The translations under genes were made by a program, and so were the position numbers. The notes below the pieces were generated by a model. The model saw nothing but the letters and a program-made list of their open reading frames with translations, had not been told where the DNA came from and did not search any database. From Rhodospirillales bacterium (GTDB lineage: Bacteria > Pseudomonadota > Alphaproteobacteria > Acetobacterales > Acetobacteraceae), in assembly GCA_025352565.1 (NCBI GenBank), contig JANXTF010000118.1, positions 1 to 64,000 of the forward strand: a stretch of DNA of 64,000 bases. Direction: 5' to 3'. Below are positions 5,699 to 9,146 of the stretch, piece by piece; position 1 is the stretch's first letter, and every line of letters starts with the position of its first letter.

Positions 5699-7404
5699 TG
5701 GCCCGCATCACGCGCCGCGCCTATGCCGACATGTATGGACCCACCACCGGAGACCGGGTGCGGCTGGCCGATACCGAGTTGTGGGTGGAGGTCGAGCGCG
5801 ACCTGACCGTGTACGGCGACGAGGTGAAGTTCGGCGGCGGCAAGGTGATCCGCGACGGGATGGGGCAGTCCCAGGCGTCGCAGGCCGAGGGCGCGGTGGA
5901 CACCGTCATCACCAACGTGCTGATCGTGGACCATTGGGGCATCGTGAAGGCCGACGTGGCGATCACCAACGGGCGGATCGCGGCGATCGGCAAGGCGGGC
6001 AATCCCGACGTGCAACCGGGGGTCACGATCATCGTGGGCCCGGGCACCGAGGTGATCGCGGGGGAGGGCAAAATTCTTACGGCGGGCGGCGTGGACAGCC
6101 ACATCCACTTCATCTGTCCGCAGCAGGTGGACGAGGCGCTGGCCTCGGGCGTCACCACGCTGGTGGGCGGCGGCACCGGGCCGGCGACCGGCACCTCGGC
6201 CACCACCTGCACGCCGGGGCCGTGGCACCTCGCGCGCATGTTGCAGGCAGCCGAAAGCCTGCCGGTGAATCTCGCGTTCTCGGGCAAAGGCAATGCCAGC
6301 CGGCCGGCGGCGCTGGAGGAGATGCTGCGCGCGGGCGCGTCGTCGCTGAAGCTGCATGAGGATTGGGGCACCACGCCGGCCTCGATCGATTGCTGCCTGA
6401 CGGTGGCCGACAAATTGGACGTGCAGGTGATGATCCATACCGACACGCTGAACGAGAGCGGCTTCGTCGAGGACACCATCGCGGCGTTCAAGGGCCGCAC
6501 CATCCATGCGTTCCACACCGAAGGCGCGGGCGGCGGCCATGCGCCCGACATCATCCGGGTGGCGGGCTTGCCGAACGTGCTGCCGAGCAGCACCAACCCG
6601 ACGCGGCCCTACACGTCCAACACGCTGGACGAACATCTCGACATGCTGATGGTGTGCCACCATCTCGACCCGTCGATCCCCGAGGACGTGGCGTTCGCCG
6701 AAAGCCGCATCCGGCGCGAGACGATCGCCGCCGAGGATATCCTGCACGACATGGGTGCCTTGTCGATGATCTCGTCGGACAGCCAGGCGATGGGACGGGT
6801 GGGCGAGGTGATCATCCGCACGTGGCAGACGGCGCACAAGATGAAGCTGCAGCGCGGGTCTTTGCCTGGCGACGGGCGGGCGGACAATGCGCGGGTGAAG
6901 CGGTATATCGCGAAATACACGATCAACCCCGCCATCGCGCAAGGACTGGCGCGCGAGGTGGGCTCGATCGGCGTGGGCAAGCTGGCGGACCTCGTGCTGT
7001 GGTCGCCGATGTTCTTTGGCGTGAAGCCCGATCTGGTCATCAAGGGCGGCAGCATCGCGATGGCACCGATGGGCGACCCGAACGCCTCGATCCCGACGCC
7101 GCAGCCGGTGCATTACCGGCCGATGTTCGGGGTGCTCGGGGGCGCGCTGGCGGCAAGCTGCATCACCTTCGTTTCGGGCGTGGCGTTGGAGAGCGACATC
7201 GGCTCCCGGCTCGGCTTGCGGCGGCATCTGGCGGCGGTGTCGGACACGCGGGGCGGGATCGGCAAGCGCAGCATGATCCACAACGACGCGTTGCCGAACA
7301 TCGAGGTGGACGCGGAGACGTACGAGGTGCGCGCGGATGGCGTGCTGCTGACCTGCGAGCCGGCCACCGTGCTGCCGATGGCGCAGCGGTATTTCCTGTT
7401 CTGA
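5698..7404 (+). CDS. ureC: Urease alpha subunit UreC (catalytic)
   Basis: Catalytic subunit carrying the dinuclear nickel centre, 568 residues, full length. All key residues are present: metal ligands His135 and His137 in HIHF, the lysine that is carbamylated (Lys218) in [10 protein letters not shown], the [10 protein letters not shown] and [12 protein letters not shown] segments, the flap cysteine Cys320 with His321/His322 in MVCHHLDPS, and Asp361 in SSDSQAMGR. The enzyme should be active if nickel is supplied. No nickel transporter gene is seen nearby. Confidence 0.98.
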
Positions 7405-7877
7405 TGCGCGGCACATCCGTCCTGGCGAAAGGCGAGTGGGAGGCGGCGCGGGAGGTCGATTGCGTGCTGGTGGATTACGACCGGCGGCACCGACGGCGCA
7501 TTCTTTTGCCGACAGTGAGCGGTGCCGGGTTGCTGCTCGATCTGCCGCAAGCGGTGCGGCTGCGTGACGGCGATGGGGTGGTGCTGGAGGATGGCGGCGT
7601 GGTGCGCGTGCGGGCGCGGGCGGAGGCGCTGCTGGAAATCCATGCGCATGACGATGGGGATTTGATCCGCATTGCCTGGCACCTCGGCAATCGCCATCTG
7701 CCGGTGCAGCTTCTGGGCGAGTTCATCCGCATCCGGGCCGACCATGTTATCGAGGAGATGGTCGAGGGGTTGGGTGGGCATGTGGAGCATGTCGCGGCGC
7801 CGTTCGACCCCGAGGCGGGGGCTTATTCGGGCGGCGGCCATCATCACCATCACGGGGACGACGACCATGAGCATTAA
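7404..7877 (+). CDS. ureE: Urease accessory protein UreE (nickel metallochaperone)
   Basis: Nickel-binding chaperone that hands Ni(II) to UreG during urease maturation. The 157-residue protein starts at the ATG at 7404, overlapping the ureC stop by one base. The RIAWHLGNRHLPVQL segment carries the conserved metal-site histidine region. The C-terminal tail is a natural metal-binding stretch of five histidines followed by DDDHEH, as in many UreE proteins. Its last 11 bases overlap the Uma2 gene. Confidence 0.95.
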   Translation: MRGTSVLAKGEWEAAREVDCVLVDYDRRHRRRILLPTVSGAGLLLDLPQAVRLRDGDGVVLEDGGVVRVRARAEALLEIHAHDDGDLIRIAWHLGNRHLPVQLLGEFIRIRADHVIEEMVEGLGGHVEHVAAPFDPEAGAYSGGGHHHHHGDDDHEH

Positions 7878-8415
7878 TCCGCGGCCCCACATGGATGCCG
7901 ACACATTCATCGCCTGGGCAATGGAGCAGCCGGAGACCGAGCATTACGAGTTGTACGAAGGCGAGATCGTCGGCATGTCGCCCGAGCGATCGGCCCATGG
8001 GCTCGTCAAGGGCAATGTCTACGTGGGTGTGGCGAACGCGATCGCGCGGGCTGGCCTTCGTTGCTGGGCCTATATCGATGCCATGGCCGTCGTCATCGGC
8101 GCCAACAGCGTGTTCGAGCCGGATATCGTGGTGCGCTCCGGCAACAAGCTTCCAGACGATGCGCTCAAGATCACCGACCCGATGATCGTGGTCGAGGTGC
8201 TCTCGCCGTCCACCCGTGCGCGGGACTTCAACACCAAGCTGACCGGCTATCTCAGCATCCCGTCGCTGCGGCACTACCTCATTATCGACCCGGACACGCG
8301 CCGCATCGTGCATCAAGCGCGCAATGGCGCAGGCCGGTTCAGCACGACGATCCTGGGCGACCAGCCGATCGCGTTGGACCCGCCGGGGATCGTGCTGGAG
8401 AACATCTTCGCTTGA
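7867..8415 (+). CDS. Uma2 family (DUF820) restriction endonuclease-fold protein
   Basis: A 182-residue Uma2-type protein. The PD-(D/E)xK core is visible: Asp86 in FEPDIVV, Glu110 in IVVEVLSPST and Lys124 in NTKLTGYL, followed by HYLIIDPD. The cellular role of this family is poorly known. It lies inside the urease accessory block, overlapping ureE by 11 bases and sharing its stop with the TTG start of ureF, so it must be co-translated with them. Nothing in the sequence ties it to urease chemistry; it may be a passenger inserted between ureE and ureF. Confidence 0.88.
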   Translation: MSINPRPHMDADTFIAWAMEQPETEHYELYEGEIVGMSPERSAHGLVKGNVYVGVANAIARAGLRCWAYIDAMAVVIGANSVFEPDIVVRSGNKLPDDALKITDPMIVVEVLSPSTRARDFNTKLTGYLSIPSLRHYLIIDPDTRRIVHQARNGAGRFSTTILGDQPIALDPPGIVLENIFA

Positions 8416-9146
8416 GCGTCCTGCGGCTTCTCGCGTGGCTGTCGCCCGCGTTCCCCACCGGCGGCTATGCGTGGTCGCTTGGGGTGGAGTGGGCAGTCGA
8501 TGTGAACGAGATCACCGATGGGAAGAGCCTGTTCCCGTGGGTGGCGGATGTGTTGCGGCACGGAGCTGGGCGGAACGATGCGATTTTATTGCGGCACGCG
8601 CACAGACTTGTATCCACATCCCCGTCACGGTCGGCGCAGGCCGGCCATCCACGACTTTGCTGCGGCACTGAAGACATGGATGGTCGGCCTCCGCCGACCA
8701 TGACGGAGCGTTTGGGACACCTCGTCGAACTCGCCCTCGCCACCTCGCCCACCCGCGAAATCCATGCCGAATCCATCGGCCAGGGCAATGCCTTCCGCCT
8801 CGCCGCGTCTACCTGGAAACCCACAATCCTGCACGAGATCGAGGGCGATCTCCCCTATCCCATCGCTGTCGGGGCGCTGACCGGTGCCAGCGGCATTTCG
8901 GAGCAGGATGCGACGCTCGCGGTGTTGCAGGCCTTCGCGGCCAACATGATCTCGGCGGCGGTGCGGCTGGTGCCGCTGGGGCAATCGGCGGGGCTCGCGG
9001 TGCTGGCGGCCCTGGAACCCGTGATCGAGGAAGTGGCCCGCGAGACGCACGCGGCCACGCTCGACGATCTCGGCGCGGCATGCTTCCGCGCCGATCTGGC
9101 ATCCATGCGTCACGAGACGCAATACACGAGGCTGTTCCGCTCATGA
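8412..9146 (+). CDS. ureF: Urease accessory protein UreF, with in-frame insertion
   Basis: GTPase-regulating accessory protein that acts with UreD and UreG. The TTG at 8412 overlaps the Uma2 stop and gives the start [21 protein letters not shown] (first residue Met), typical of UreF. The C-terminal half ([25 protein letters not shown]) is normal. At 244 residues it is longer than usual because about 28 residues, from near residue 71 to 98, are encoded by a palindromic repeat at 8622-8706. The reading frame is kept. The insertion lies between helices, so function may survive. Confidence 0.93.
8622..8706. repeat. Palindromic element inserted in frame in ureF
   Basis: Bases 8622-8653 and 8675-8706 are inverted repeats matching at 28 of 32 positions around a 21-base spacer. 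Each arm also contains its own small hairpin (GGTCGGC...GCCGACC in the right arm). This nested palindrome resembles bacterial interspersed palindromic units. It is read through as about 28 extra UreF residues rich in Pro, Gly, Arg and Cys, which do not look like UreF. No second copy was found in the window. Confidence 0.8.

Follow-up and report, generated by a model that had tools for sequence, protein, structure and literature searches.

The closest described systems are the CGTC-tagged REPs and the REPINs, the latter being of the GTAG type. In the parts of Di Nocera et al. (2013, PMC3733652) on which we draw throughout, CGTC-tagged REPs carry a CGTC tag, a stem of 8-9 bp, a loop of 4-5 nt and a CCA tail, and complementary A-T in the first two stem positions is almost invariable. 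They occur mostly as head-to-head dimers with spacers mostly of 20-100 bp, are mostly extragenic, are found mostly in alpha-Proteobacteria and have no dedicated transposase; some dimers are nested within longer palindromes, and truB is a recurrent target in several species. More than half of the intragenic insertions consist of dimers or groups and encode 20-30 residues, and the R. conorii repeats RPE-6 and RPE-4, both located in frame in genes, are equated with CGTC-1 and CGTC-4, respectively. CGTC repeats are stated there to be missing from Acetobacteraceae (PMC3733652). REPINs, as presented in the parts of Bertels and Rainey (2011, PMC3116915) used here, are inverted REP doublets in extragenic space. 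No earlier report of such repeats in ureF or in Acetobacteraceae was found among the open-access papers searched.

The palindromic element in ureF

The element lies in the urease maturation gene ureF, within a window of 64,000 nucleotides, which is the whole stretch of DNA that was analysed. An earlier note, made from the sequence alone, had described 32-base inverted arms, 28 of 32 matching, with inner hairpins, and this anatomy was borne out by sequence comparison and folding. The arms at 8622-8653 and 8675-8706 were identical at 28/32 positions, and the RNA fold of 8600-8730 reached -69.7 kcal/mol (z -6.15; 0/200 shuffles equally stable), with each arm, as read by eye, forming its own hairpin of 9 stem positions and a 4-nt loop. 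The span of 8622-8706 proposed there holds for the repeat itself, but the limits, taken from CGTC to GACG, lie one base further in on each side (Table 1).

Table 1. Coordinates of the repeat and of the gene that contains it, in the window
Feature	Position	Strand	Remarks
CGTC-tagged REP dimer, head-to-head, 83 nt	8623..8705		net insertion 84 nt compared with the congener G010
Left REP unit	8623..8651	+	CGTC tag, imperfect 9-bp stem, loop GCAG, tail CCA; by eye; pattern site with 2 mismatches
Spacer, 25 nt	8652..8676		resembles a degenerate version of the CGACTT...AAGTCG spacer of G078 dimers (by eye)
Right REP unit	8677..8705	-	CGTC tag, perfect 9-bp stem, loop GGAG, tail CCA; by eye; pattern site with 1 mismatch
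ureF with in-frame insert	8412..9146	+	open frame, TTG start assumed; Pfam PF01730, E 7.4e-32

Both units begin with the tag, at 8623 on the forward and 8705 on the reverse strand, and end in CCA (8649-8651 and 8679-8677, respectively), so that the two tags point outward in a head-to-head arrangement around the spacer. Stem and loop lengths fall within 8-9 bp and 4-5 nt, the left stem having one mismatch and one G-T among its 9 positions. The complementary A-T of the first two stem positions is present in the right unit, and the left unit has AC there with the second position unpaired. The repeat is dispersed in multiple copies in its own genome, where the tyrosine transposase family PF01797 was without a match. 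Judged from these features, the ureF element fits the definition of a CGTC-tagged REP dimer, with which it shares the outward CGTC tags, the stem of 9, the loop of 4, the CCA tail and the head-to-head order; the repeat family as a whole is likewise mostly extragenic and, by the PF01797 search, has no dedicated transposase (PMC3733652, in the parts used). It differs in that its 9-bp stem and 4-nt loop mix the values of four published families, and in that its host belongs to the Acetobacteraceae, a family stated to lack them (PMC3733652).

The resemblance to the palindromic elements of Rickettsia, which the earlier note had suggested, gained substance because RPE-4 and RPE-6 belong to the CGTC superfamily whose definition the ureF element fits, and like it lie in frame in genes, a likeness drawn through PMC3733652 and by description only. 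Unlike those elements, in the ureF genome one gene alone was found interrupted inside a domain. The REPINs also resemble the ureF dimer as inverted REP pairs around a short spacer that could form one long hairpin, but they accompany a RAYT gene in the parts of PMC3116915 used here, whereas the ureF genome had no Y1 transposase match. A RAYT-driven REPIN was rejected as the identity of the ureF element on this ground. Rfam gave no match at the ureF repeat at the gathering threshold, and a known RNA family was thereby ruled out at this site.

Copies in the genome and in Acetobacteraceae

The earlier note had asked for a genome-wide search for the arm sequence and had held that arms without other copies would speak against a mobile palindromic unit; the search revealed a repeated family. 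A 31-nt unit pattern with at most 3 mismatches found 29 sites in the own genome and none with the reversed control, and a 95-nt query gave 38 matches at E <= 0.01, located at at least 27 loci of the 4.5-Mb genome; the matches outnumber the loci because palindromic copies were often matched on both strands. Within the 64-kb window, the mismatch limits applied yielded no copy but that in ureF. Among the other full-length copies, the closest is 84-85% identical and lies between rbfA and truB (L002 1503-1585). Of the ten full-length copies, eight sit inside a longer repeat, about 180 bp by our count, that has conserved flanks. These flanks are missing from the ureF copy and from that on contig C130, and on this ground a copying of the entire longer repeat into ureF was ruled out. 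The longer repeat around the CGTC-REP dimer is MITE-like and was seen at L004, L005, L007, L008, L009, L010, L012 and L017, with possible short duplications near CTNAG-like targets as read by eye. REP copies also lie close to the ends of contigs C31, C115, C116 and C122, and such repeats may break the draft assembly there.

Among the 27 loci of the own genome, the ureF copy was the sole one found within a Pfam domain in the frames scanned. For 15 other loci, 19 repeat-spanning stop-to-stop frames were scanned at a Pfam E of 0.01; three matched (truB, an ABC transporter and an acyl-CoA dehydrogenase), each time with the repeat upstream of the first domain. Four further loci have no repeat-spanning frame of at least 80 aa, and the scan leaves out seven of the 27 loci, whose spanning frames are of 90 to 174 aa, as well as second frames at several loci. 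In G078, a genome with 86 exact-pattern sites in total, 20 regions holding 30 units (10 dimers) by a looser pattern were sampled. Twenty spanning frames in 15 of these regions were scanned and gave one Pfam match, with the repeat outside the domain; in four others no frame of 90 aa spanned the repeat, and the scan did not include one 103-aa frame. Open frames through the repeat are nothing unusual: of the 120 frames in 20 dimers, 69 were stop-free (two of the 20 slices had one extra base), compared with a proportion of 0.54 among shuffled ureF inserts in a given frame.

Across the family, the strict unit pattern without mismatches was found in 19 of 120 genomes, own included, and the reversed control gave 0 in all; this pattern misses the ureF copy itself, and many of its sites have a 5-nt loop, so they are not exactly units of the ureF type. 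Ten of the 19 genomes hold at least four sites and the others one to three. The richest was G078, with 41 plus 45 pattern sites and dimers laid out as at ureF around a similar spacer, and the congener G010 had none. DNA similarity to the ureF copy was detected in 5/60 genomes, own included, with at least about 20 matches each in G002 and G014 and one weak partial match each in G120 and G130.

The Y1 transposase family PF01797 gave no match in the own genome (G000), and as a control 5/14 other genomes matched. It was absent from G010, G002, G014, G027, G113, G084, G055 and G130, and also from G078, G052, G015, G051 and G105; it was present in G120, and G049 and G076 had one match each, barely above the cut-off. 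The lineage-specific insertion in ureF, together with the absence of a Y1 transposase match in the own genome and in the copy-rich G078, leads to the tentative and rather doubtful suggestion that CGTC-tagged REP dimers are mobile, now or until recently, through a non-RAYT enzyme. Repeat-bearing genomes without a Y1 transposase bear on what moves CGTC-type REPs, and if the suggestion were true, they would be the place to seek the mobilising enzyme.

The insert and the state of UreF

The ureF frame is stop-free across the whole element. UreF matches occur in 76 of the 120 genomes of the family, own included, and an NCBIfam search of the window UreF protein gave no match at E 0.01. Counted from a shared start motif, the window UreF has 242 residues and that of the congener G010 has 214, which makes the former longer by 28 residues or 84 nt; this congener is the only one compared, and each species is represented by one genome. 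Most of the listed UreF alignments break off near query residue 67 and restart near 100, leaving the insert without a partner, and the remaining own-genome matches to this part of the query are repeat DNA, including the C130 copy. Thus the addition of about 28 in-frame residues unlike UreF, as the earlier note had it, agrees with our comparison, and the same residues without the palindromic DNA, which that note would have counted against a mobile unit, were seen in none of the relatives examined.

The insert is absent from all 29 ureF loci aligned (the congener and 28 others). It is likewise absent from 77/77 named loci, these being the ones that could be aligned from the start motif among 80 taken from GTDB genomes, after three without the motif had been dropped. 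In the DNA alignment with nine relatives, the gap lies directly after the HAHR helix. The repeat, at 83 nt, is one base shorter than the net gain, and no clear target duplication was seen when the flanks were compared with the empty site and inverted flanks were scored, the flanks being too diverged. The alignment of relatives called for by the earlier note thus located the insertion but not a base-exact border, which, because the flanks have diverged, can be placed only to within a few bases.

The linker stretch has 37 residues in the window and 2 to 11 in 74 of the 77 named loci (58 with 9 or 11). The other three, L131, L135 and L137, have 23, 25 and 29 residues, which is 14-20 above the commonest length, and their extra residues are by eye unrelated to the repeat; the L131 linker contains CGTCATGG. 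These expansions speak against an otherwise invariant linker and for one that tolerates changes in length.

The core of the protein is kept. In an alignment of 44 UreF sequences (the window and 43 of the 80 named loci), 38 columns show no variation among the other 43, and the window UreF conforms at all of them, as it does at 31 of the 33 nearly invariant columns. Its residue 23 is Leu, against 37 His, 5 Ser and 1 Gln among the 43 relatives, and this could hint at relaxed constraint. Over the 203 codons compared with G010 outside the insert, 44, 26 and 99 differences fall at codon positions 1, 2 and 3, and 52 residues are changed; the bias looks like purifying selection over a period that includes the time before the insertion. 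UreD, UreA, UreB, UreC, UreE and UreG are present and match nearly full Pfam models.

The AlphaFold2 model of the window UreF (mean pLDDT 84.9, pTM 0.85) shows the UreF fold, and its PDB structure matches at E <= 0.001 were ten, all UreF, the best being 4hi0_A with a TM of 0.79 by query. Residues 71-90 have a pLDDT of about 60 and lie between the helices 52-68 and 97-110, and confidence is likewise low at residues 11-20 and in the last 14 residues. The insert looks like a surface loop. UreF probably tolerates it, because all the invariant columns are kept and the insert falls in a low-confidence loop. Of the H. pylori complex, the parts of PMC3792862 used here state that the F-tail loops are where UreG touches UreF, and that UreF helices 1 and 8 mediate dimerisation of the UreF/UreH complex; the insert seems to lie outside both regions, judged by its position along the sequence alone.

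Origin of the insertion and neighbouring genes

Very probably, a non-autonomous head-to-head pair of CGTC-REPs entered ureF once, after the lineage had split from the congener G010, stayed in frame and was tolerated in the linker. The alternative history, an exact loss of the insert in the congener and in all other relatives, would be less likely. The gene would have stayed open because the net gain is 84 nt and the frame used is stop-free, so that about 28 residues would have been gained in the linker between two helices. Transposition, or copying of a similar kind, would have spread the family, and insertions that broke genes would have been removed by selection.

That the insertion inactivated UreF, leaving an early pseudogene whose frame is open by chance, is rather unlikely. 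Partner binding could suffer from 28 extra residues in a protein of about 214, the stop-free proportion among shuffled inserts makes the open frame weak evidence, and the Leu at residue 23 is unique among the 44 sequences; however, the net length is divisible by three, the gene shows no other lesion, the invariant columns and the rest of the urease cluster are retained, and the length of the linker varies in relatives too. The same in-frame state, and the longer linkers of three relatives, would also agree with a peptide put to use, for example in tuning the contacts of UreF with UreD or UreG, but the peptide is a low-confidence loop in the model and is found in one genome, which affords no measure of conservation, and we regard such a role as quite improbable.

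Misplacement of a repeat inside ureF during assembly is very improbable: several copies do lie close to contig ends in this draft of 164 contigs, and repeats may disturb assembly, but the insert lies inside a 96.7-kb contig, in frame and among ureE, Uma2, ureF and ureG in order, and the best other full-length copy is divergent enough for reads to be placed. Ordinary variation of the UreF linker, with the hairpin a coincidence, is hardly credible. It could appeal to the 14-20 extra residues of L131, L135 and L137, which by eye look unrelated to the repeat, but the inserted DNA matches a dispersed family for which the reversed control gave 0, and the UreF protein, when searched against the own genome, matched the C130 repeat copy. 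Native UreF variation was rejected because copies of the repeat occur elsewhere in the own genome.

The in-frame insertion is ordinary in kind, as the class of repeat is known; it is extended by ureF as the target and Acetobacteraceae as the host. A metallochaperone gene is thereby added to the genes with in-frame REP insertions, and Acetobacteraceae are included as a host family of CGTC-tagged REP units. Since urease is easy to assay and structures of UreF have been solved, ureF is a convenient case for testing the neutrality of a REP-derived peptide.

The gene order on the contig is ureE, Uma2, ureF and ureG. The Uma2-family gene (PF05685) occupies 7867-8415, between ureE and ureF; it had no match at E 1e-5 in 52 named loci, and the congener has a shortened remnant, 27% identical, at this position. 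Another relative has a different small ORF in the interval from ureE to ureF, at L108 1556-1969, and Pfam gave no match for it. An Rfam match to 5_ureB_sRNA (80.6 bits) was found at 5868-6126 on the reverse strand, antisense to ureC, and may merely reflect conserved coding sequence.
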